Assembly: GCA_903833275.1 (NCBI GenBank)
Contig: CAILEP010000008.1
Location: 124,001-188,000 of the forward strand
From: an uncultured Bdellovibrionales bacterium
GTDB taxonomy: Bacteria; Bdellovibrionota; Bdellovibrionia; Bdellovibrionales; UBA1609
Reading direction: 5' to 3'
DNA length: 64,000 nucleotides
In this document: piece after piece, positions 4,936 to 17,232 of the stretch
Layout of the letters: each line of letters opens with the position of its first letter
Numbering within the stretch: position 1 is the stretch's first letter
The notes under the pieces: generated by a model
Told to the model about the DNA's origin: nothing
What the model saw: the letters and a program-made list of their open reading frames with translations, nothing else
Database searches by the model: none
Made by a program: the position numbers and the translations under genes

Positions 4936-5865
4936 CTAACTATCTATTAATTTCCACTGGTACGGGTTCAAAACCTCTTCTGGTACCGCCAAAAACCCGA
5001 TCGCATCCCGCACGGTTTGAATTTCATTACGTGAAAGCGGCGGCCGCGTAAAAAGTTTTAAGTTCTCACCCAATTGTTTTGAACTTTCGACACCAAAAAC
5101 GAGGCTCTGAGCCCAGTCAAGCCCGAGGGCATATGCATAGGCGAGATCCCTGCGATTAACGCGATCAAGTTTCACAACCAGTCTATCTACAATCTTAAGC
5201 ATTGGCCCGATATCGTGCCCAGCTATTTTTTGCTTAATAGGGTCAAAACTCTCGGTAAGCACACCTTGCAAAAGCACTGAGCGCAATTGAATTTCGACAT
5301 CGGGCCGCGAGCGACGAATATCTTGAAATTTCGATTCCAACGGCCGGCCATCAAGCAAATTACACGGCATCTGAATAAATTTAATATCTGAATCGTGTAG
5401 AGCTTCAATCGCCTCTTCAATGTTAAGCGCCGACACTCCAAGTTTCTCGTAATGCTCATGAAGCGCCAAAACACGACTTCTGATTTCGGCATTTTTATGA
5501 TTAGCCCATCGATGGTACATGAAAATGTCGATTTTGGTTCGGCCCAAAGCCGCGAGCGATGCCCGCAGGCTTTCTTCTGCTCGCTGGCCCATAGCCGAAT
5601 CATTCTCGATTGGCGCCAACTTTGTACCCACAAGAACGCGACCCTTGTCGATTTGCATTAGAAATTCGCCAAGCACATGCTCCGCAGTGCCATATGCCCG
5701 CGCTGTATCGAAAAATTGAATTCCCGAATCATAGGCGAGCCTCATAGTCTTAATCGCTTCGTCATGCGAGGTCTGGCCATGGCTATTGGTGACCCCATAG
5801 GGAGTACCGAATTGCACCGTGCCGAGGGCGAGTTTTTTAAAATGTAATGGCTTACCTGAGCCCAC
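4936..5865 (-). CDS. Aldo/keto reductase in glycan cluster
   Basis: The 309-residue protein has the aldo/keto reductase barrel with an N-terminal GTVQFGTPYG strand. The catalytic tetrad is visible as D53 and Y58 (FFDTARAYG), K82 (VGTKL) and H118 (FMYHRW). The C-terminal NADPH-binding end is shorter than in classical members. The start is GTG at 5865, nine bases beyond the pseC stop. Reductases of this type recur beside SpsF-like transferases and GSA-aminotransferase-like proteins in nonulosonate and flagellin-glycan clusters, so reduction of a sugar intermediate is the likely role. The exact step is unknown. Confidence 0.8.
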   Translation of the reverse strand: MGSGKPLHFKKLALGTVQFGTPYGVTNSHGQTSHDEAIKTMRLAYDSGIQFFDTARAYGTAEHVLGEFLMQIDKGRVLVGTKLAPIENDSAMGQRAEESLRASLAALGRTKIDIFMYHRWANHKNAEIRSRVLALHEHYEKLGVSALNIEEAIEALHDSDIKFIQMPCNLLDGRPLESKFQDIRRSRPDVEIQLRSVLLQGVLTESFDPIKQKIAGHDIGPMLKIVDRLVVKLDRVNRRDLAYAYALGLDWAQSLVFGVESSKQLGENLKLFTRPPLSRNEIQTVRDAIGFLAVPEEVLNPYQWKLIDS

Positions 5866-5874
5866 CGATTTCTC

Positions 5875-7044
5875 TTATTTCTTAAAAAAACGTTTTATGG
5901 TTTCGATCACATACTCTTGTGACGCGTGCTCGAGCCCATGATACATCGGCAAACTCAAACAGCGCGAGTAGTAGTTATCACAGGCCGCGAACGACTGCTT
6001 GCCATAGAGCTCTTGATAGTAAGGGTGTCGATACACTGGCAAATAGTGAACCTGGGCGTAAACATCATTCGCCCGCAAAAAATCATAAAGTTGCTTGCGC
6101 TGATTATTTTGGTTACCGCACATCACAACGTAGAGATGATAGGCATGCCGAGCCCGCGAATCGGCTTCGGCATTTGGAAGAACAAGAGGAGTCCCTGCCA
6201 ATTCGTCACGGTACACTTGTGCAATTTCGCGCCTGCGTCGCAAATTTTCGTCCATGCGCTTCATTTGACTCAAGCCTAAGGCGCAAAGAATATCGGAGAT
6301 CCTATAGTTGAACCCGAGCGATTGCATCTCCATGTACCAGCCGCCATGGGCTTCATGCATGAGTTTAGGGTCACGTGTGATGCCGTGAGTACGCAAAGAA
6401 CGCAAACGATCATTAAGGTCAGATTTGGCCGTTACAGCCAGGCCACCCTCACCGCAGGCGATATGCTTTACCGGGTGAAATGAAAAAACCGCAATATCGG
6501 CAAACCGTCCACTACCAGCTTTGCGCCATTGCTGCTTTGAGTCCAGAAACTCAGCGCCCAAAGCGTGGCAGGAATCTTCGATAATCCAGAGGCCATGTTG
6601 ATCTGCAATATTGCGAAGCCGTTCAAAATCGAGGGGGTAACCTGCAAAATCAACAGCTACGATACCACGATAGGTGCCGGATTTGCTTGCTGCCAATTTT
6701 TTCTCTAATTGATCGAGATCAAGACAATAAGTTTTCGCATCAATATCCACAAACTCAACGTCGGCTCCGCAGTAACGAATGCAGTTGGCTGAGGCCACAA
6801 AAGTATTTGGTGTCACCAGCACTCGATCACCCGGTTTTACGCCCAAGGCAAGTGCCGCCAGATGAAGCGCTGCCGTACCGTTAGTTACCGCCACCGCATG
6901 CGAGGCACCCAAATACTGGGCCATAGCGGCCTCAAATTCATCAACCGTGGGGCCCTGTGTAAGAAAATCACCGCCTAAAACCGAGAGCACGGCCTCTTTA
7001 TCTGAATCCGTAATTGTTTGGCGACCGTAGGGTATCGGCTTCAT
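5875..7044 (-). CDS. pseC: PseC-type UDP-4-amino-4,6-dideoxy-N-acetyl-L-altrosamine transaminase
   Basis: The 389-residue PLP aminotransferase belongs to the DegT/DnrJ/EryC1 family. Visible landmarks are YGRQTITDSD at the N-terminus, VTNGTAALHLA (53-63), the D157-containing IIEDSCHALGAE and the internal aldimine lysine K193 (SFHPVKHIACGEGG), which matches PseC more closely than other sugar aminotransferases. PseC converts the PseB 4-keto product to the 4-amino sugar in pseudaminic acid synthesis. The start at 7044 follows AAAGGG at a good distance. It lies 35 bases downstream of pseB. PseH, PseG and PseI are not in this window. Confidence 0.9.
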   Translation of the reverse strand: MKPIPYGRQTITDSDKEAVLSVLGGDFLTQGPTVDEFEAAMAQYLGASHAVAVTNGTAALHLAALALGVKPGDRVLVTPNTFVASANCIRYCGADVEFVDIDAKTYCLDLDQLEKKLAASKSGTYRGIVAVDFAGYPLDFERLRNIADQHGLWIIEDSCHALGAEFLDSKQQWRKAGSGRFADIAVFSFHPVKHIACGEGGLAVTAKSDLNDRLRSLRTHGITRDPKLMHEAHGGWYMEMQSLGFNYRISDILCALGLSQMKRMDENLRRRREIAQVYRDELAGTPLVLPNAEADSRARHAYHLYVVMCGNQNNQRKQLYDFLRANDVYAQVHYLPVYRHPYYQELYGKQSFAACDNYYSRCLSLPMYHGLEHASQEYVIETIKRFFKK

Positions 7045-7079
7045 GTTTTTATTGGCCCTTTAAATAATCCGGCGAATCT

Positions 7080-8090
7080 CTATGCCTCAAACTGTGCATC
7101 GACATGCAACTTAATTAACGATCGCAACTCGCCCACACCCAACCACTCTTTGTTGTTGCCAGAACTGTAACGAAAATTGTCGGGTACTTTTTCGGCCTTA
7201 AATTTTTTGCACCATTCTTCGGTGCTCCAGCTGGGGTTGATCGGTGCGATCACATAGAATTTGCCGCAGTCATAGGTATTCATTGCATCAGTTTCGGTGA
7301 TCATTTCTTCATGAAGCTTTTCGCCAGGGCGAATACCGACAATTTCAGTTTTGCATTTTGGCGCAATGGCTTCAACCACGGTCGTGATTTTGTACGACGG
7401 TATTTTGGGCACATAAAGTTCGCCACCCCAAGAGTGCTCGATCGCATGCATGACTAAGTTTACACCTTCTTCGAGCGTAATATTGAAGCGAGTCATATCT
7501 GGATGTGTGATCGGTATTGTCCCCGACTTTTTCTTTTCGAGAAAAAATGGCACAACCGAACCACGCGAGCCGAGAACATTGCCATAACGAACGACTGAAA
7601 AAGTAAGGTCGCGAGGCCCTTTGAAATTATTTGCGGCGATAAAAAGTTTATCTGAGCAAAGTTTTGTCGCGCCATAAAGATTTATCGGTGCCGCGGCTTT
7701 ATCAGTCGAAAGAGCTACAACTTTTTTAACACCCATATCTAGGGCGGCATTGACGACATTCTCAGCGCCAAAGATATTGGTCTTTATGCACTCCATTGGA
7801 TTGTATTCAGCCACAGGCACATGCTTCAAAGCCGCTGCATGAATAATAATATCGATGCGCTCGCAAGCTCGCTTTAACCGTTCACCATCACGAACATCGC
7901 CAATAAAAAATCTCAACTGAGGATATTTTGCCGTCGGAAACTGTTGCGCCATTTCGTACTGTTTAAGCTCGTCGCGCGAATAGATAACCAATCGCTTAAC
8001 TTGGGGAAACTGTTTTAAGGTCATTTCGACAAATTTTTTGCCGAACGAACCGGTACCGCCCGTGATTAATATTCTCTTATCATTTAGCAT
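7080..8090 (-). CDS. pseB: PseB-type UDP-N-acetylglucosamine 4,6-dehydratase (5-inverting)
   Basis: The 336-residue short-chain dehydrogenase-like enzyme has the NAD(P)-binding GGTGSFGKKF (11-20) and IIHAAALKHVPVAEYNP segments typical of FlaA1/PseB. The catalytic D130, K131 and Y139 are spaced as in characterised FlaA1 enzymes, with the conserved K143 following (STDKAAAPINLYGATK). It dehydrates and epimerises UDP-GlcNAc, the first step of pseudaminic acid synthesis used for flagellin or surface glycosylation. It is the first gene of the minus-strand run pseB-pseC-AKR-SpsF fusion. No strong ribosome binding site is visible before the ATG. Confidence 0.92.
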   Translation of the reverse strand: MLNDKRILITGGTGSFGKKFVEMTLKQFPQVKRLVIYSRDELKQYEMAQQFPTAKYPQLRFFIGDVRDGERLKRACERIDIIIHAAALKHVPVAEYNPMECIKTNIFGAENVVNAALDMGVKKVVALSTDKAAAPINLYGATKLCSDKLFIAANNFKGPRDLTFSVVRYGNVLGSRGSVVPFFLEKKKSGTIPITHPDMTRFNITLEEGVNLVMHAIEHSWGGELYVPKIPSYKITTVVEAIAPKCKTEIVGIRPGEKLHEEMITETDAMNTYDCGKFYVIAPINPSWSTEEWCKKFKAEKVPDNFRYSSGNNKEWLGVGELRSLIKLHVDAQFEA

Positions 8091-8144
8091 AGATAAACTG
8101 ATTACAACGCGAGCGATTTCGAGTCTAGCAAATAGTTTACGCGA

Positions 8145-9416
8145 TTAGACCTGAAGGGCTCGAGTGGGCTTTAAAAGCATCGCCATTACGAGCGCCCAAC
8201 CGCAGAGAAGAATATGAAGGGGTTTGGCGTCAAAAAAGGTCGACTGGGTCAAACCACCGATGTGAAAAAACACCTGAGCGCCCACAGAACCCAAGGCGAC
8301 AGCGCGCGCTAAGGTGTCCTGGCCGCGGTCGCGCCAGTAGAGCTTCAGCGCACTCCAGAAGAAAAAGGCGCAAAAATAGAGCCAAATGACAAAACCCGGC
8401 AAACCACTGCCAGCTAGAACTTGTAGAAAATTATTATGAGTTTGCGCCTCAAAAGATTCGTGACCGAATACTTTTTGATTGTACTCGTGGGTGAAAAAAT
8501 AGTTGTAGCCGTAGCCAACGCCGACGATGGGGTGATCTTTAAACATCTGCCAGTTAACGCGCCAAAGATCATAGCGCTGCGACACCGAATGGCTCGCCCC
8601 TTCATTGATAATACTAGCCAGGCGATCGCGCACGAGCGACGAACTGAGGGCCCCGACCAACAACACCCCGGCCAAGCCGGCGGTCAGTTTTACCCCAAGA
8701 TCGCGGCGATACACAAACGCCATCACGACGAGAGCGCCACCGATACCCACCCAAGCACCTCGAGTAAAAGTACAGATGAGGCCGAGACCCAGAATTGTGG
8801 TCAGCGCCACCGTCACCAGCCGTCGTTTTTGCGAGCCCCGGCGACAAAGTAGGTAAGCAAAAGCGAATGCGAAAACTTGGCCAAGGCAATAGGCAAACGA
8901 CATGGTGTTGGAGAAAAACCCTCGAGCACGCCAAACCGCAACCCCGCCGAATGTGTCGTGATCGTAAGTGCTTTTGGCGTCGATCAGATCAAGGCCGGTA
9001 AAAGATTGCACAACCCCGTAAACGGCGGCGATCGCAAAGGCGACCACCACAATATTTAAAAATCGCTGCTGCCATGACTCAAGCTCAATGAAGGTTATCG
9101 TGAGCGCATAGAGCAAAAGAATAAATCGCAGCTGGCCGACGACATCGATGCGAAACTTCATCGGCAGTGTGGTGGCATTTAAAGCCCCTGCGGCCACAAC
9201 CAGTAAAAAAGCCAAAAACCACGGCTCGGGGCCGAGTCGCACCAAATTGTATTTTTTGGTCGCGAGCGCCACCATTGCGAAAACCACAGTGCCGTAGCCA
9301 AAAAGCTCCATGCCCGCCATCGAGGTGGCAAGGCTAAGGGCATAGAGTGCGAGCAGCGCGCCAGCGGCAATCACGAAAATTCGCTTGCGAATAGAAATGT
9401 TGGAATCGATTGGCAT
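8145..9416 (-). CDS. O-antigen ligase/polymerase family membrane protein
   Basis: The 423-residue protein is strongly hydrophobic throughout, with about ten to twelve membrane segments. A large periplasmic loop near residues 270-330 holds the Wzy_C/O-antigen ligase pattern SQRYDLWRVNWQMFKDHPIVGVGYG followed by THNNFLQVLAGSGLPG. An arginine in the transmembrane region (FTRGAWVG) also fits WaaL-like proteins. These proteins either join O-antigen to lipid A core or polymerise repeat units; sequence alone does not separate the two. The ATG at 9416 follows CGGAG. It ends 54 bases before pseB and may head that transcript. Confidence 0.85.
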   Translation of the reverse strand: MPIDSNISIRKRIFVIAAGALLALYALSLATSMAGMELFGYGTVVFAMVALATKKYNLVRLGPEPWFLAFLLVVAAGALNATTLPMKFRIDVVGQLRFILLLYALTITFIELESWQQRFLNIVVVAFAIAAVYGVVQSFTGLDLIDAKSTYDHDTFGGVAVWRARGFFSNTMSFAYCLGQVFAFAFAYLLCRRGSQKRRLVTVALTTILGLGLICTFTRGAWVGIGGALVVMAFVYRRDLGVKLTAGLAGVLLVGALSSSLVRDRLASIINEGASHSVSQRYDLWRVNWQMFKDHPIVGVGYGYNYFFTHEYNQKVFGHESFEAQTHNNFLQVLAGSGLPGFVIWLYFCAFFFWSALKLYWRDRGQDTLARAVALGSVGAQVFFHIGGLTQSTFFDAKPLHILLCGWALVMAMLLKPTRALQV

Positions 9417-9532
9417 TTGCTCCGGATGGTTTCATGGGGCTTCGAGATTGTCAATTCGCCGGTTATACCCGAAAAAATCCGAAGGCGGACACTTTCGGGC
9501 GCTAACGACAATGTGACTGGTAGAAAATTAGA

Positions 9533-9558
9533 ACGGGGCTTGCAGTGCCAAACCCCGT
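9533..9558 (+). other. Hairpin in leader of small membrane peptide gene
   Basis: ACGGGG at 9533-9538 pairs with CCCCGT at 9553-9558. After one mismatch, TTG (9540-9542) pairs with CAA (9549-9551) around the loop CAGTGC. It sits 35 bases upstream of the small ORF starting at 9594 and directly before a second hairpin, so the leader would fold into two tandem stems. No U-run follows, so it is not an ordinary terminator. Confidence 0.5.
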
Positions 9559-9567
9559 CGTGGAACC

Positions 9568-9587
9568 CCCTTCTGCAAAGAAGGGAG
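9568..9587 (+). promoter_or_regulatory. SD-sequestering GNRA-loop hairpin
   Basis: CCCTTCT (9568-9574) and AGAAGGG (9579-9585) form a perfect 7-bp stem closed by GCAA, a GNRA tetraloop. The 3' arm contains the Shine-Dalgarno sequence GAAGGGAG for the ATG at 9594, at 6-7 bases spacing. When folded, the stem would hide the ribosome binding site, so translation of the downstream peptide would depend on melting or refolding. The pairing is read directly; the regulatory role is inferred. Confidence 0.6.
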
Positions 9588-9593
9588 TAACCA

Positions 9594-9725
9594 ATGAAGA
9601 AACACCCACGTGTTTCCAAATTCGGTCGGAAGATGACAAGACTTGAGTTAGCACTATCACTTTTTCTACTAGTGCTTAAAATCTTGTTGATCGTCATAAA
9701 GCTGGCTGCCGTTCTAAGGGCTTAA
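9594..9725 (+). CDS. 43-residue cationic membrane peptide
   Basis: The short gene encodes a basic N-terminus (MKKHPRVSKFGRKMTR) followed by about 25 hydrophobic residues (LELALSLFLLVLKILLIVIK) with two lysines inside the helix, ending LAAVLRA. A single membrane or amphipathic helix is expected. Support for a real gene is the strong GAAGGGAG ribosome binding site at correct spacing and the structured leader that encloses it. Size, charge and shape resemble type I toxins and other regulated small membrane proteins, but I recognise no family. It stands alone between O-antigen ligase (divergent) and rfbB. Confidence 0.6.
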   Translation: MKKHPRVSKFGRKMTRLELALSLFLLVLKILLIVIKLAAVLRA

Positions 9726-9917
9726 GAGTCGGATGACTATGACTTTGGGCTGGCTAACCACTCGATTCAACCGCAGTTTGGGGGTGAAGCGACACTGGGG
9801 TTGAAAAAATGGCGGCACTCCCCCTCACTGCAAAACGCTCTAGACAAAACGGCGGCGGCAAAACATAATGGCGCGCAAACCGACCTTCATTACGAGCGCC
9901 AGATTAGGAGTCTTTTT

Positions 9918-10997
9918 TTGCCCAACCCGTCAGCCCATAACAGCCCAAAACGCTTACTGATCACCGGCGCTGCCGGTTTTATCGGCAGTCAGGTCGCGCG
10001 CGAAGCCCTCAAACTTGGTTATAAGGTCACAATACTAGATCTCCTAACTTACGCCGGCCACATGGCCAATATTGATGAGATTGTTGACGGCGACCGGGTG
10101 AAATTCGAAAAGGGCGACATCGGCGATTTTGAAAAAGTCTACGCGTTGTTAAAACGCGATGGCATTACCGGGGTCATGCACCTGGCGGCTGAGTCGCATG
10201 TCGACAATTCGATTAATGGCCCCCTGCCCTTTGTGCAGACCAATGTTCTTGGCACTTTTCATTTGCTCGAAGCGGCACGCCGTTATCACGAAGAATTAAC
10301 TGGTGACGCCAAGGCGGCGTTTCGATTTTTGCATGTTTCAACAGACGAAGTTTTTGGCGAGCTGGATGACAAAGGTTTTTTTACCGAAGAAACCCCTTAC
10401 GCGCCGAACTCGCCTTATTCAGCTTCGAAAGCTGCCTCTGATCATTTGGTAAATGCCTGGGGCCACACTTATAAATTGCCGGTTGTCACCACCAACTGTT
10501 CAAATAATTATGGGCCGAGACAGTTTCCGGAAAAGTTGATCCCGCGCATGATTGTCTGCGCCTTGAGTGGCGAAAAATTACCGGTCTACGGCAAAGGCCT
10601 TAATGTTCGCGACTGGATTCACGTTGAAGATCACGCACGCGGGCTACTTTTGGCGCTTGCCAAAGGCACCCCGGGCGAAAGCTATTGTTTCGGCGGGCGC
10701 TCTGAGAGAAAAAATATCGATGTCGTGAACGCACTTTGTGCCATTCTTGATCGAGTGCACGCGCGCGCCGACGGCCGCTCGTACGCTGAACAAATTTCTT
10801 ACGTCACCGACCGTGCCGGCCACGATTGGCGCTATGCCATTGACGACACCAAGGCCGAAAGCGAACTTGGTTTTCGACGCGAATATAAGAATTTCGAGGC
10901 CGGCCTCGAGCAAACGATTAAATGGTATCTCGACAATTCGAAATGGCTCAAAACCATTGCAGACAGTAAGACCGAACATTCTTCGGTCAAAAAATAA
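9918..10997 (+). CDS. rfbB: dTDP-glucose 4,6-dehydratase
   Basis: I choose the TTG at 9918, seven bases after AGGAG; the frame is open further upstream but those codons lack a binding site and the family usually starts just before the Rossmann motif. The 359-residue protein shows LLITGAAGFIGSQ (13-25), HLAAESHVDNSI, the active-site T142-D143-E144 (STDEVFGE) and Y167-x3-K171 (YSASK), and SNNYGPRQFPEKLIP. Length matches the family (about 355). It makes dTDP-4-keto-6-deoxyglucose for rhamnose or other deoxysugars. It is followed by rfbA after 9 bases; rfbC and rfbD are not present nearby. Confidence 0.95.
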   Translation: MPNPSAHNSPKRLLITGAAGFIGSQVAREALKLGYKVTILDLLTYAGHMANIDEIVDGDRVKFEKGDIGDFEKVYALLKRDGITGVMHLAAESHVDNSINGPLPFVQTNVLGTFHLLEAARRYHEELTGDAKAAFRFLHVSTDEVFGELDDKGFFTEETPYAPNSPYSASKAASDHLVNAWGHTYKLPVVTTNCSNNYGPRQFPEKLIPRMIVCALSGEKLPVYGKGLNVRDWIHVEDHARGLLLALAKGTPGESYCFGGRSERKNIDVVNALCAILDRVHARADGRSYAEQISYVTDRAGHDWRYAIDDTKAESELGFRREYKNFEAGLEQTIKWYLDNSKWLKTIADSKTEHSSVKK

Positions 10998-11006
10998 GGG
11001 AGCACT

Positions 11007-11879
11007 ATGAAGGGCATTTTACTCGCCGGTGGCAGCGGTTCACGTCTTTACCCCTCGTCAAAAGCCATTAGCAAACAGCTCTTGCCGGTTTATGACAAGC
11101 CCACAATTTACTATCCACTTTCTGTGCTAATGCTGGCTGGCATTCGCGAAGTTTTGATTATCAGCACCGAGCGCGACATCCCGCTAATTCAAGAGTTGCT
11201 CGAAGACGGCAGCGCCATCGGCATGAAGATCGAATACGCCACACAAGCCGCGCCCAAAGGTATTTCAGAGGCGTTTTTGATTGGCGAAAAATTTCTGGGT
11301 GGTTCGCCGTGCTGTTTGATTTTGGGCGACAATCTTTTCTATGGTAACGACCTTTTCAAATTGCTCGACGATGCCCTCTCGCACGAAAAAGGCGCCACGA
11401 TTTTTGGCTACCACGTTAGCAACCCCGAACAATTCGGAGTTGTCGAGTTCGACAAAAACTTCAAAGCCCTAAGCCTCGAAGAAAAACCGAAAGCGCCGAA
11501 ATCAAATTGGGCCGTCGTCGGTTTATATTTTTATGACAAAACCGTCGTGGCAAAAGCTAAAAGCTTGAAACCATCGGCCCGCGGCGAACTTGAAATCACT
11601 GACCTCAATCGAATGTATTTACAAGAGGGCCAACTTCGCGTTTTGCCTATGAGGCGCGGTATGGCCTGGCTCGACACCGGCACTCACGATTCGCTCTTAG
11701 CATCGTCACAGTTTGTGCAAACCATTGAACAGCGCCAAGGTCTTAAAATTGCGTGTATCGAAGAAATCGCGTTTGCGAAGGGTTTTATTTCTGAAACCGA
11801 GCTCGCCACGTTGGCTGAAAAAATGCCGAACTCGAGCTATGGGCAGTACGTTAAGAATTTACTTAAGCACAGACACTAG
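11007..11879 (+). CDS. rfbA: Glucose-1-phosphate thymidylyltransferase
   Basis: The 290-residue protein has the nucleotidyltransferase signature GGSGSRLYPSS then KQLLPVYDKPTIYYPLS near the N-terminus, ILGDNLFYG near 110, and the C-terminal WLDTGTHDSLL of RfbA/RmlA. Length is typical. It forms dTDP-glucose from glucose-1-phosphate and dTTP, the substrate of the adjacent dehydratase. A GGGAG site precedes the ATG. Its stop overlaps the convergent lipoprotein gene by 4 bases. Confidence 0.95.
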   Translation: MKGILLAGGSGSRLYPSSKAISKQLLPVYDKPTIYYPLSVLMLAGIREVLIISTERDIPLIQELLEDGSAIGMKIEYATQAAPKGISEAFLIGEKFLGGSPCCLILGDNLFYGNDLFKLLDDALSHEKGATIFGYHVSNPEQFGVVEFDKNFKALSLEEKPKAPKSNWAVVGLYFYDKTVVAKAKSLKPSARGELEITDLNRMYLQEGQLRVLPMRRGMAWLDTGTHDSLLASSQFVQTIEQRQGLKIACIEEIAFAKGFISETELATLAEKMPNSSYGQYVKNLLKHRH

Positions 11880-12586
11880 GCCTGATCGAGCTTTTTGTTG
11901 ACTGCAGAGAGCCAATGTTTGGCATCGGCCACGCCCGTTTTCACCTGCTCAACAATATGGCTCTGGTCGACAACAACGCCCCGTTTGCTTTCTAGAATAG
12001 CTGCGTAGCCGTGATCGATGACCGAAATCAAAAGTGCTTTGGCTTGTCGAATTTTTTTAGGCGTTAAATCGGCTGGCACTTCGCGCTCAGAAGTGGCCCA
12101 ATCGATACCGACAATAATGCCGTAATCGCGTAGCAATTTGTAGATGGCATTATGGTACGCACCGAGATGAACATTGGCTTCACCGACATCCGTTTGCTTG
12201 GTATTAATAGCCTCAATCCAAAGATTTGCATCGTTCACGCTATTTTGAATTTGCGGGATTTTGTGACCAGTGTCGACGACCCCGGGTCTATTGCTATCGG
12301 CGACAGCGGCTTGGCCGTGCCCAATTAATGAAATCAATAGCGCTTTGGCTTCGTTGATCTGCTGCGGGCTTAATTCGCGTGGGACTTCGTGCTCAGTCGG
12401 TTTGCCATCAGCTCGAACTACAATGTGATAGTCGATGAGCAATTTAACCGCGTCATTTTGAAAACCATCAAGATGAGCATTGCCATCGTCTGCGGCGGCT
12501 TTCGCATTGGGGTCGATGGTTGCGCCGCACGCACTTAAAATCGTCGTCGCGGTCAAAAGTAGGCCTAGTAATATCGTTTTTGTCAC
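11876..12586 (-). CDS. Lipoprotein with two tandem copies of an about 95-residue domain
   Basis: The 236-residue protein has a lipoprotein signal peptide ending ILSAC, with lipidated C20. Two homologous halves follow, about residues 38-133 and 138-236. Each contains an NAxHLxxxxN-like start, KLLxDYxI, the shared EVPxxLxPxxIxxAKALLIS, xxGxAA and VVDxxHxxxQ, then VxDAxxWxxAxNxK. The duplication is plain by eye. No family is recognised; the halves look all-alpha. It presumably sits in the inner or outer membrane facing the periplasm. It converges on rfbA with a 4-base overlap. Confidence 0.75.
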   Translation of the reverse strand: MTKTILLGLLLTATTILSACGATIDPNAKAAADDGNAHLDGFQNDAVKLLIDYHIVVRADGKPTEHEVPRELSPQQINEAKALLISLIGHGQAAVADSNRPGVVDTGHKIPQIQNSVNDANLWIEAINTKQTDVGEANVHLGAYHNAIYKLLRDYGIIVGIDWATSEREVPADLTPKKIRQAKALLISVIDHGYAAILESKRGVVVDQSHIVEQVKTGVADAKHWLSAVNKKLDQA

Positions 12587-12821: not shown

Positions 12822-14861
12822 TCACTCGACTAAAAATGGAGCGTCGGCAAGTCTATTTTTCGGTAGTATTTTAACATTAAGCTCTCTGGATCTCGAAAGA
12901 ACCTCTGGCTCCGCAAAATGCGCTGTCACTAAAGTTGATCGGCTGGCAATACCAAACTCGGCTATCAATTCTAGGCCATTCGTGCGCGGATCTTGAAAAT
13001 CATAATCGACAAAGAATTGAAATATTTCGTGGCCATTTTTTGACCGGTCGCTATACCAAATACGAAACTGCTCGGCAGTCATAATGTTACTTATAAAGAC
13101 TGTCTGCGAGGCGGCCAACTCGGCCAGCCGGTGGCGCCAGACTTCATGAATGGCCTTATCGTCGTCGACAATTATGATACTGGCCCCTTGTTGAATTGAA
13201 ATGTGCGAGCGGTATTCTTCTACTACCTCTCGCCAAGGTATCCGCATCGTAATTTCTGTGCCTTCATTGACTTCGGACCTGATTTTAAACTCACCGCCAA
13301 TCGACTCTATTCTTTGACGGGCCGAAAAGAGACCAAGGCCGTTGCCCCCCTCTTTGCCAAAAGTCATCTCTTCAACACCAGCTTTTTTTAAAACTTCTTC
13401 TGGCATACCATGGCCGAAGTCTCTTATTAGTATTTCAGTTAGTGAGCCTTTTTTAGATAGGGCCAACACAATTTTTCCGTTTTGCTTAGACGCCTCGATA
13501 GCATTTGTAAGTAGATTCGAGATGACGTTCTGAAGTTGTGTCTCTTGCAAAGCAACAACAACTTCGCCGATCCCGTCATCCCTGTGGTAATCAATTTGCA
13601 CGTTTTTAGAAGCGGCCAGGGGCGCCTTTTCACGCAAACACAACCGAATATTTTCATCCAGCCGGGTTTCTAAAACAAGGGTAGACTTCACAGCCGAGGC
13701 GGCGTTGGGCCTCACTTCTTTTCTGTAGTTGCTCAACAAATCATTCGCAATATTTGTTATTCTCTTAACTGCCGCCACAAGTAATTCGCGATTTGCCTCG
13801 GGGTAATTGTGCGCTTCTTTAAGAACTAATTGAAGCGCCGTTAGCGGCGACCGAATATCATGAGCCACCTGCCTCGAAAGTCGACCAATCGCCGCGCTCT
13901 TCTCGCTTTCGACAAGTTTAGTATTGGTTTCGATCAAGCGCCGCTCATATAACGTGATTTGGGCAACAAATGTCTTTAGACCCAAAAGAAGCTGGCGGTT
14001 CTCCCAAAGCAAAAACCTGGGCTCTCGAAATTCAAAGGTATTCTTTATTTCAACACTAGTGGATGCCCGGGCCAAATCTGCAATAATCGTCTCAAATGGG
14101 TAAAGAAAGAAATAGCGAACAGCTAAACCAATGAAGAGCAGCATAAAGAGCAATGCGACTATTGATCCCAGCGCAATAATTTTTTGAAGCGTTCTATTGA
14201 CCGCACTTATAGACTCAACATTCGGCTTTAAATCTGCCACAACTGCCGAGTCACCCAAGCGATAGACTTCATCAGACAGTCTTTGATTGGACCTAACCAT
14301 CCGAAAAAGTGATTTACCATCCACATTCAATGTCCCGCGCACGCCCGGTTTCACCCCAACCAAGTTAGAGGCCATAAATACGATGCCTACAGCATCACCA
14401 TAAAGGTACAATGGGGCCACGGAGGCGACCAAAACATGTTCATCATCCTGGCAAAGGGCTTCGCCCGTTAATTTGCCATCAAACTCTTTGAGACAAGCAC
14501 TAACAACAGGGTTTTTCGAAACTAACTTATTTTTGGGCAGCATTTCGAAAAATTCAAGATTCGATCTGTGGCGAAAGTCTTCGATTTGCTCATTGTATAC
14601 GCTATAATCGCGGCTCGCCTCTGCAAGCACCAAAGCTCCAGACAAATTTGCATCCGACTGTATCACTTTGCTAAGGTTGGCGAGGTAGACGCGTTTGTCC
14701 TCGAATGAGTTCTCAATAATTTGCCGCAAATTCTCTTTTTGCACTTCGCTAAGACGCTCAACACTCCAGTTAAGCGATTGTTTGGTCAAAGGCAATATTG
14801 CCAGTGTGCCCAAGAAAAGAGAAACCACCGCAATCGCGATAAAGGCATTTGCTATTCTCAA
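12822..14861 (-). CDS. Membrane sensor histidine kinase with C-terminal receiver domain
   Basis: The 679-residue protein has one membrane helix at 5-27, a periplasmic sensor region of about 200 residues with two cysteines (C123, C137), and a second helix at 229-253. Then come a HAMP-like linker, the H-box with phospho-acceptor H334 (VAHDIRSPL), the N-box around N449-N453, G-boxes DFGHGMP and GGNGLGL, and a receiver domain at 560-679. The receiver keeps D566-D568, acceptor D619 (FFVDYDF) and K668. It is therefore a hybrid kinase; no DNA-binding output partner is adjacent. Its start overlaps the stop of the upstream binding-protein gene by 4 bases, so the two are probably co-translated and may form one sensor. 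Confidence 0.9.
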   Translation of the reverse strand: MRIANAFIAIAVVSLFLGTLAILPLTKQSLNWSVERLSEVQKENLRQIIENSFEDKRVYLANLSKVIQSDANLSGALVLAEASRDYSVYNEQIEDFRHRSNLEFFEMLPKNKLVSKNPVVSACLKEFDGKLTGEALCQDDEHVLVASVAPLYLYGDAVGIVFMASNLVGVKPGVRGTLNVDGKSLFRMVRSNQRLSDEVYRLGDSAVVADLKPNVESISAVNRTLQKIIALGSIVALLFMLLFIGLAVRYFFLYPFETIIADLARASTSVEIKNTFEFREPRFLLWENRQLLLGLKTFVAQITLYERRLIETNTKLVESEKSAAIGRLSRQVAHDIRSPLTALQLVLKEAHNYPEANRELLVAAVKRITNIANDLLSNYRKEVRPNAASAVKSTLVLETRLDENIRLCLREKAPLAASKNVQIDYHRDDGIGEVVVALQETQLQNVISNLLTNAIEASKQNGKIVLALSKKGSLTEILIRDFGHGMPEEVLKKAGVEEMTFGKEGGNGLGLFSARQRIESIGGEFKIRSEVNEGTEITMRIPWREVVEEYRSHISIQQGASIIIVDDDKAIHEVWRHRLAELAASQTVFISNIMTAEQFRIWYSDRSKNGHEIFQFFVDYDFQDPRTNGLELIAEFGIASRSTLVTAHFAEPEVLSRSRELNVKILPKNRLADAPFLVE

Positions 14862-15886
14862 TTTGGAACTCGGCGAAAAATTTTCAAAACGTCATCCGTG
14901 TACAGGTCATCAACTTTTATATTTTTATTTTCGATAATGCCGTCACGAAGTGCAATTTTAAGCCCCGATTGCCATTGAGACCGTGTCATCTCACCAAAAT
15001 GAGGCGCACCGACACCCTCATAGAGGTAGCGCTGCGCTAATTTCATCTGCGTCAGTTGTTGTTTAAGGGTTAAATCATAACTTCCATCGATGTAATGGTC
15101 TTTATGGTACCAATTTTTCATGACTACGCTCACAGCAGCCGCCGGATTGCGATAGGCCTCTTGCCACCCTCGGCGAGTAACGCGTAAGAAATTCGCCAAC
15201 TCCAATTTCCGGCTCGAAATGGTCTTTGATTTCGCATAGAATACTGTGCCGTAAAAGTGAAAACCATAAAGATAACTTTGAAACTGGCGAGTGTTATAAC
15301 CCTTAAGAGCAAAACCCACTGGGTGGTTAAACGCCCACACTGGCAGGGCGTCAAAAAGATTTAGGCGTAAATCGTCCAGTAGGTCGTCAAACTTGAAAGA
15401 GGGGATGTATTTAAAATTTACATCGCTCAACGACAATCCTTCATGTGCCAACATGACACGAATAAAGGCTTTCTCTTGATCCGTGAAAATGCCGATCGTT
15501 TTGCCTTTGAGGCCCTTTAACGATTTGACTTTGGGGTCGACGGCAAGAGACAGCGGATTGATCTGATATTCGGCGGCAAAAGCCTTTAGATCTTGCCCTT
15601 TTGCCACCTGACGAATGACCTCATGCCCAGAATGCATGGCTACATCGACTTCATCCGCAATCAGACTCTCACTTATGTTGAGGTCTTGCGAGACAAATTT
15701 CAAATCGATGCCAGCCTCGCGATACCAGCCCTTTTCATACGCTAAAAATAGACCGGCAAACTCGACGGTCGGGTAATAAGTCAAATGAACACGCAGTGGC
15801 GCTTTAAATGCGGCACGCGCCATAGTCACATCAAAAGAAAATAAAAAAGTGAGCCCCAAAAGTAAGCTCAAGGGCCTTATATTCAC
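14858..15886 (-). CDS. NMT1/THI5-like periplasmic substrate-binding protein
   Basis: The preferred start is GTG at 15886, which overlaps the previous stop as GTGA, follows GGAGAGG, and yields a clean signal peptide (NIRPLSLLLGLTFLFSF, cleavage after ARA). An in-frame upstream start at 15937 would add 17 basic residues and spoil the signal. The 342-residue protein has the NMT1/THI5 pattern: YYPTVEFAGLFLAYEKGWYREAGIDLKF, DVAMHSGHEVIRQVAKG and LKGLKGKTIGIF. This family binds pyrimidine precursors, sulfonates and similar small ligands. No permease or ATPase is nearby; instead a hybrid kinase overlaps, so ligand sensing is more likely than uptake. Confidence 0.85.
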   Translation of the reverse strand: MNIRPLSLLLGLTFLFSFDVTMARAAFKAPLRVHLTYYPTVEFAGLFLAYEKGWYREAGIDLKFVSQDLNISESLIADEVDVAMHSGHEVIRQVAKGQDLKAFAAEYQINPLSLAVDPKVKSLKGLKGKTIGIFTDQEKAFIRVMLAHEGLSLSDVNFKYIPSFKFDDLLDDLRLNLFDALPVWAFNHPVGFALKGYNTRQFQSYLYGFHFYGTVFYAKSKTISSRKLELANFLRVTRRGWQEAYRNPAAAVSVVMKNWYHKDHYIDGSYDLTLKQQLTQMKLAQRYLYEGVGAPHFGEMTRSQWQSGLKIALRDGIIENKNIKVDDLYTDDVLKIFRRVPN

Positions 15887-16683
15887 TTGTTGATAACCTC
15901 TCCGAACCAAATGACCTCTCGTGCTCCGCTTCGACAAGCTGACTCTACAATTATCTGTGATAGATTACCCCAGAAGCTAAAATTTACGCCGAGAAAATTT
16001 ACGATTGATCCAGATGGCAGCCGGTATCGTCGACTCTCAAGATATGGGTTATTAGCACTGGTTACGGGCAAAAGATTAACAGTTGAGTTAATCTCAGTAA
16101 AAACTTCGTCTACATAACCAATGATGACTCGATCCCCTTCTTCGACAAAGCCTTTGTGCAAATGCGTCCAGAAAGGCAATGCGTGAAACGCGATAGGGTA
16201 GTAAATGAGTTTTAAGTCGGCATGAATACCAAATCGCTCGACAATTCTTCTAATCATTGTGCCGTAGTGCTTTATATAATCACTACCTGGCACGACACAC
16301 ATAATAAACTTCTTATGTGATTTGTGCACAAAGAACCGAGGACGAACAACATTGTATTTTCGTGCCGTCGGGCGATGATAGAAGTCAATTTCGCAGAGCG
16401 TACCATCGGTCAATTCACGCTCAAAAACGAATTCAAAATGCTTTGGGTAAATGCCATGTACCTCAAGGCGACCGCCAAATTTTGCAGTTTCTAATATTTG
16501 CCCCACTGGCAGTTTCTGCATTACGTACTCATCAAGAGCTTCATACATCGTATGTGTTTCTGGCGTTGGCGACGGTATGTAATCAATATTTACCAAATCA
16601 CTAATTTGGTAGATAGAGCCAAGACTCAGGTTAATTCGATCTTCCTTAAGGGGCCCTCTGTGAAGCGCTTGAATTCTTGTCAT
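15883..16683 (-). CDS. Unrecognised 266-residue protein in sensor operon
   Basis: No family is recognised. The protein has no signal peptide or membrane helix. It is rich in aromatic residues and histidines in the middle (for example YYPIAFHALPFWTHLH, residues 155-175) and has alternating strands such as FIMCVVPGSDYIKHYG, RVIIGYVDEVF and a C-terminal IIVESACRSGAREVIWFGEV. That pattern suggests an alpha/beta enzyme with a possible nucleotide- or base-binding C-terminus, but this is weak. It starts 7 bases after the Nudix gene and its stop overlaps the binding-protein start (GTGA), so it is part of the four-gene unit. Confidence 0.8.
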   Translation of the reverse strand: MTRIQALHRGPLKEDRINLSLGSIYQISDLVNIDYIPSPTPETHTMYEALDEYVMQKLPVGQILETAKFGGRLEVHGIYPKHFEFVFERELTDGTLCEIDFYHRPTARKYNVVRPRFFVHKSHKKFIMCVVPGSDYIKHYGTMIRRIVERFGIHADLKLIYYPIAFHALPFWTHLHKGFVEEGDRVIIGYVDEVFTEINSTVNLLPVTSANNPYLESRRYRLPSGSIVNFLGVNFSFWGNLSQIIVESACRSGAREVIWFGEVINK

Positions 16684-16690
16684 ACAACAG

Positions 16691-17086
16691 TTACTTCCAT
16701 CGCTCTGTAATCAATTCAAGTGTCGGCTTTGCAATGCTAAGCTTTTGCAACTCATCCCGACTAAACCATCCATACTCTGTTGACTCTGAGTTCAAAACAA
16801 CAGCGCTTGGGTTTACGGCTCTTGCCGTATGTTCAAGAAAAATAAAGTGCCTTTCGGGCTCAATTAGCTCTCTCACCCCGCGATACTCAATTTCTTGCAG
16901 GTGAAGATTCGTCTCTTCAAGAATTTCGCGGCGAAGTGCTTCGATAAGCGATTCTCCGAAATCGACCTTACCGCCTGGGATAATCCATTGATCCCCATAT
17001 TTACCAGAAGAACGCATTAAAAATGCGCGATTTTGATTATCAAAAATTAGGGCCCCGACTATCGCCCGCGGCACGTTTTTAGTCAC
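16691..17086 (-). CDS. Nudix hydrolase
   Basis: The best start is GTG at 17086, with GGAGG eight bases upstream; an in-frame start at 17140 is possible but lacks a binding site. The 131-residue protein has an intact Nudix box: G39-x5-E45-x7-R53-E54-I55-L56-E57-E58 (GKVDFGESLIEALRREILEE), with preceding strand WIIPGG. Nudix enzymes cleave nucleoside diphosphates linked to another group. Specificity is not readable; the WFSRDEL segment near 110 is common in ADP-sugar or mutT-like members. It is the first gene of the operon with the unknown protein, the binding protein and the hybrid kinase. Confidence 0.9.
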   Translation of the reverse strand: MTKNVPRAIVGALIFDNQNRAFLMRSSGKYGDQWIIPGGKVDFGESLIEALRREILEETNLHLQEIEYRGVRELIEPERHFIFLEHTARAVNPSAVVLNSESTEYGWFSRDELQKLSIAKPTLELITERWK

Positions 17087-17232
17087 TGTTTGATCCTCCG
17101 ATTGATCGAAGGTCAAAGCTGCCAAAACCATGCCACGCAATGAGCTCAGTACGCCACAAAGGTGCTTAATCGTTGTCTAAATGTTTAACACTGTGACAAT
17201 TACGGGCTTACGCCTTTTGCCTGATGCTGAAA

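Follow-up and report, generated by a model that had tools for sequence, protein, structure and literature searches.

LuxP-LuxQ, the AI-2 receptor of Vibrio, consists of a periplasmic binding protein and a transmembrane hybrid kinase, and the periplasmic domain of LuxQ itself does not bind the signal directly (PMC8534201). BctC-BctE, TorT-TorS, and XylFII-LytS also belong to the kinases activated by a binding protein (SBP) (PMC9602780, PMC8534201), and one survey counts only about ten characterised SBP-kinase cases (PMC9602780). Among the open papers searched, none was found that describes an NMT1/THI5-type binding protein as the ligand receptor of a separate kinase.

The window, which is the whole stretch of 64,000 nucleotides analysed here, comes from an uncultured Bdellovibrionales bacterium and harbours genes for such a combination. 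Similar to LuxP-LuxQ, it encodes a periplasmic binding protein and a transmembrane hybrid kinase, but this binding protein belongs to the NMT1/THI5 family. In BctC-BctE, TorT-TorS, and XylFII-LytS the ligand-loaded binding protein acts on the kinase, as is proposed below for the window; these systems use other SBP families, and BctC additionally serves a transporter. The following features were identified:

12822-14861, minus strand: hybrid histidine kinase, 679 aa, TTG start
14858-15886, minus strand: periplasmic binding protein of the NMT1/THI5 family, 342 aa including a signal peptide, GTG start
15883-16683, minus strand: X, nucleoside-phosphorylase-like protein, C-terminally truncated, 266 aa
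15883-15915, minus strand: proposed deletion junction, made up of the final 8-10 codons of X plus the GTGA overlap
16691-17086/17140, minus strand: Nudix hydrolase, with the start at 17086 or at 17140

The layout of the first-pass annotation agreed with the ORF list and Pfam: the Nudix gene and X are separated by 7 bases, X overlaps the NMT1 gene by 4 bases (GTGA), and the NMT1 gene overlaps the kinase gene by 4 bases (TTGA). No permease gene was present between or beside the four genes in the window. That annotation had proposed the four genes as a candidate for one new signalling system. We favour, with a probability of about 0.72, a reading in which the NMT1 protein and the kinase form an intact two-gene sensor, while X is a truncated fusion remnant beside the Nudix gene after a deletion.

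The four genes have a GC content of 42-45% and are AT-richer than most of their neighbours, and three of the four showed the poorest codon fit among the genes tested, which is consistent with gene acquisition. As the genes are AT-richer than most neighbours, their composition could also result from a recent transfer of all four together. A promoter scan was uninformative, with fewer sites than in shuffles. Close to the four genes, at 11876-12586, the window also encodes a lipoprotein-like protein of 236 aa that contains an internal duplication and matches Colicin_M weakly (E 0.0012).

The Nudix gene, protein X and the proposed deletion junction

The Nudix protein matched the NUDIX family of Pfam (PF00293, 3.9e-18) and possesses a Nudix box, GKVDFGESLIEALRREILEET; of the consensus GX5EX7REUXEEXGU, the GX5EX7REUXEE part is present and the final GU is NL. 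One close relative of the gene was found in the order, with neither X nor the NMT1-kinase pair beside it.

Protein X is aromatic-rich, as had been claimed, with 12.8% F/W/Y compared to a median of 8.9% in the long ORFs of the window. It has no match in Pfam, NCBIfam, PDB (by sequence), phages, or viral contigs, and used alone as query the window X detected no relative in other genomes of the order, nor in a scan of genome contigs. The search with tblastn revealed relatives on Klebsiella and Streptomyces plasmids, and an X profile detected twenty-one genomic loci in Pantoea and actinobacteria as well as a full-length relative in one genome of the phylum (G210). Ten out of the twelve members of the X alignment matched PNP_UDP_1 (best 1.2e-5), and the X profile reached uridine phosphorylases at 0.0038. 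The first-pass annotation had suggested a structure-based search for X. In a low-confidence model of the Pantoea relative (mean pLDDT 55, pTM 0.50), residues 134-376 match phosphorylases and nucleosidases, with a Foldseek match to MTA nucleosidase at 1.1e-4 (TM 0.24) and VIA Z values of up to 8.3. Matches of the X profile to RecA fusions were rejected as repeat-summed noise, and isolated peptidyl-tRNA hydrolase rows among the structural matches were rejected as well.

Full-length X relatives match the PNP_UDP_1 superfamily, which includes uridine phosphorylase and MTA/SAH nucleosidase, and differ from it by an extra N-terminal region of approximately 130 residues. The window X differs further, as the complete core including its C-terminal half is not present. 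Similarity of the relatives to X ends at residue 263 out of 266, where the relatives continue, typically via 'GK(L/V)GxL...'. Since the Pantoea relative matches phosphorylases over residues 134-376 and the homology ends at 263, the window X is without the second half of the core; it keeps the N-terminal extension and the first core half, and about 100-140 C-terminal residues are absent. X is therefore probably devoid of catalytic activity.

The end of X resembles a different gene. In the same-genus genome G130, a methyltransferase gene precedes the NMT1 gene and ends GIDIIWIGETVSS, with the same GTGA overlap, whereas the window X ends AREVIWFGEVINK. The last 8-10 residues of X match the C-terminus of this methyltransferase with a score of 33. 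Of about 3,030 ORF ends, the runner-up scores 15, and the X relatives reach 9-17 against the X tail. At the DNA level, 20 of 33 bases match between X and G130 at an identical distance to GTGA; a match of this size over 33 bases was reached at 4 of 127,934 window positions. Part of the tail likeness (IIYFG/IIWIG) is expected, because the X family itself shares an IIYFG motif, and by the discriminating part after the glycine alone 46 out of 3,033 tails score as well. The junction region is short, and the undeleted state is not seen in any genome of the same species. The methyltransferase of G130 has no match in the window's genome or in the rest of the order; the DMT gene of G130 has no match in the window's genome either, in a search without a positive control among its genomes.

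Because its tail matches the methyltransferase tail, X looks like a deletion scar whose overlap with the NMT1 gene was inherited. In relatives, enzyme and DMT transporter genes stand before the pair; in the window's genome they were probably lost in a deletion that joined the 5' portion of a phosphorylase-like gene to the final codons of the methyltransferase gene, and that would have left the Nudix gene, the truncated X, and the intact sensor pair. The Nudix gene and X thus look like remains of an enzyme cluster cut by deletion, and therefore the four genes are not likely to be one new system. X also serves as a caution, since close spacing and overlaps of the ATGA type may be the legacy of a deletion and are no proof of a functional unit.

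The missing second half of the phosphorylase core, the methyltransferase-like tail, and the fact that none of the other NMT1-kinase loci showed X or the Nudix gene make it unlikely that all four genes are one working nucleotide-signal system, in which the pair senses a nucleotide-derived signal produced or degraded by Nudix and X, even though the genes are tightly spaced and co-directional, Nudix genes lie near X in Enterobacterales and actinobacteria, and a phosphorylase gene stands beside the pair in G328. Quite unlikely is also a selected half-phosphorylase, ligand-binding or dimer-forming and possibly regulating NMT1 through translational coupling. The reading frame of X is open, with a normal start, and the GTGA overlap couples X to NMT1, but X breaks off halfway through the fold core, the tail resembles that of another gene, and the relatives found run past the truncation point, apart from a few damaged copies.

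The NMT1-kinase pair

The binding protein matched NMT1 of Pfam (PF09084) at 5.8e-34, with 118.3 bits compared to a curated cut-off of 20.5, and is the sole protein of this Pfam family in the window's genome. The solved structures closest by sequence are THI5, the FAMP-binding protein 3ix1, and 4nmy, a binding protein of clostridial origin. This set hints that the ligand may be pyrimidine-like. NMT1-family ligands are diverse, and nitrate, sulfonate, and taurine binders exist; for this reason a nucleobase, pyrimidine, or thiamin-precursor-like ligand is only weakly suggested. ThiY and THI5, the FAMP- or HMP-related NMT1 proteins among these closest structures, are unlike the window protein in that they serve transport or thiamin synthesis, without a kinase.

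The kinase consists of a first transmembrane segment (TM1), a periplasmic sensor of about 195 residues, TM2, HisKA (H334), HATPase_c, and a C-terminal receiver. Hydropathy in three orthologues placed the two TM segments on both sides of the roughly 195 residues; the window kinase has an extra hydrophobic stretch at 143-161, which was taken as part of the sensor. HATPase_c matched Pfam at 1.6e-18, the HisKA match was weak, and the receiver was not called by Pfam. Nonetheless, the receiver residues D566-568, D619, T646, and K668 are conserved, and an NCBIfam hybrid-kinase match spans residues 331-667. With HisKA, HATPase_c, and the receiver residues, the protein is a hybrid histidine kinase, in agreement with the first-pass annotation. 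The sensor region gave no convincing Pfam match, only weak Cache matches, each from single members among six, and its single-sequence model (pLDDT 42) was too poor to interpret.

The search at order level (141 genomes) revealed an NMT1 gene (61% identical) followed by the kinase gene (47%) in G130, and G102, from another genus of the order, also carries the pair. Across the phylum, 369 genomes were searched with a sensor-region profile and, independently, with an NMT1 profile; as both were built from G000, G130, and G102, the independent confirmations are G276 and G328. Strong matches to the sensor profile were present in only five out of the 369 genomes (G000, G130, G102, G276, and G328). These are also the top five genomes for the NMT1 profile, with E-values from 1e-185 to 1e-94 and the next match at 1e-29. 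One further genome, G275, matched the sensor profile weakly (1.1e-4); the gene in front of the kinase there codes for a sigma-54 regulator and not for NMT1. In this phylum, the sensor family is nearly restricted to NMT1-paired kinases.

In all five genomes, which are few in number for evidence on the pair, the NMT1 and kinase genes are adjacent and overlapping, by 4 bases in four genomes and by 11 in G102, and sensor and NMT1 co-occur across three families. Between the window and G130, dN was 0.32 for NMT1 and 0.48 for the kinase while dS was saturated, indicating strong purifying selection on both genes. Single-chain proteins of 700-747 aa with NMT1, HisKA, and HATPase_c are encoded in four more distant genomes, three of them with a receiver. 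Fusions such as those in L152, L153, and L156 have NMT1, HisKA, HATPase_c, and receiver in the same order as in the window, where NMT1 is instead secreted as a protein of its own and the kinase has retained a periplasmic domain. Adjacency, overlap, and co-occurrence show that NMT1 and the kinase are a real conserved sensor pair.

The proposal that the permease-less binding protein is the ligand sensor of the kinase stands, to judge by the gene adjacency (5/5) and the NMT1-kinase fusions. The first-pass annotation had named a lack of conserved order, a transporter beside the binding protein, and a kinase without it as findings against its proposal. The order of the pair is conserved in relatives, and the four-gene order was seen at no other NMT1-kinase locus; as X appears to be a truncated relic, this speaks against the four-gene order and not against the pair. 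ABC permease or ATPase genes were not seen in the retrieved stretches at the five loci, some of them on short contigs, and among the matches to the sensor profile only the weak one in G275 has a kinase without NMT1 in front of it. NMT1 proteins usually serve ABC transporters (PMC9602780). It is nevertheless very unlikely that NMT1 works here as a common scavenging protein for an ABC permease encoded elsewhere, with the kinase as a chance neighbour, since the two genes overlap at all five loci, no permease gene appeared in the retrieved stretches, and co-occurrence across families is joined by fusions.

For the NMT1-kinase sensor, we propose that the NMT1 protein is secreted to the periplasm, where it would bind a nucleobase, pyrimidine, or thiamin-precursor-like molecule. 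The ligand-closed complex would dock on the periplasmic domain of the kinase, which may either activate or inhibit it, and docking would change the phosphoflow that runs via H334 and D619 to a response regulator encoded elsewhere, in the way that LuxP acts on LuxQ. In G328, a sigma-54 regulator is linked to the pair.

Related neighbourhoods

The gene order in G328 is sigma-54 response regulator, uridine-phosphorylase-like enzyme, methyltransferase, DMT transporter, NMT1, and kinase, and in G130 it is oxidoreductase, DMT, methyltransferase, NMT1, and kinase. Beside the pair in G102 and G276, neither a methyltransferase nor a phosphorylase was seen, and the pair is thus not obligatorily linked to these enzymes. 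Enterobacterial X adjoins DMT, Nudix, and aminotransferase genes, and 23 of the 24 loci examined have a Nudix box no more than about 4.5 kb away from X; these loci come from only two lineages besides the window and are thus not independent. These neighbourhoods suggest that X was historically linked to Nudix, and that phosphorylase, methyltransferase, and DMT were linked to the kinase pair. The latter link gives a testable ligand class. A nucleotide-derived signal had been suspected in the first-pass annotation, and a nucleoside-related theme finds support, because X and the G328 gene belong to the phosphorylase superfamily and the closest solved relatives of the binding protein include THI5 and the FAMP-binding protein.

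The cluster in G328 (L149, 4259-11995) is a candidate complete signalling cluster, with a stand-alone receiver-like ORF downstream, and a better target than the window itself. It is doubtful, although conceivable, that such a complete form is a self-contained cell-cell signalling circuit, in which the enzymes would make a methylated nucleobase- or nucleoside-derived signal, DMT would export it, and the NMT1-kinase pair would sense it. In that case, the window's genome would keep only the listening half.

Actinobacterial loci (L065, L066, and L077-L096, at about 5000-12500; L065 and L066 annotated) harbour folE, queD, queE, a gene for a 272-aa protein, and full-length X, together with thymidylate-kinase-like, DUF2797, methyltransferase, and Nudix genes. 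This folE/queD/queE-X cluster has the appearance of a 7-deazapurine pathway not yet characterised; enzymes of the folE/queD/queE type and a Nudix step are also part of tubercidin synthesis (PMC6112128). The 7-deazaguanine neighbourhood seen in Streptomyces and Pantoea was weighed as a pathway for the window and is a lead only, as no such genes were present among the window ORFs examined.

Pantoea agglomerans (L076, 4774-11528) possesses an intact X-DMT-Nudix-DegT aminotransferase operon, which by eye adjoins QueC-like and PfkB/nucleoside-deoxyribosyltransferase-like genes. Klebsiella plasmids (L062) carry the X-DMT-Nudix-DegT aminotransferase operon too, and in K. oxytoca the X copies are shortened and have transposase genes in their vicinity (L063, L064). 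Two genomes of the order encode an exported phosphorylase-like protein of 506-520 aa (L098, 4127-6756; L099, 5712-10744). Its neighbours are exported proteins with ADP-ribosyltransferase-like patterns, seen by eye and without Pfam support, and the exported proteins of these two loci are possibly secreted effectors.
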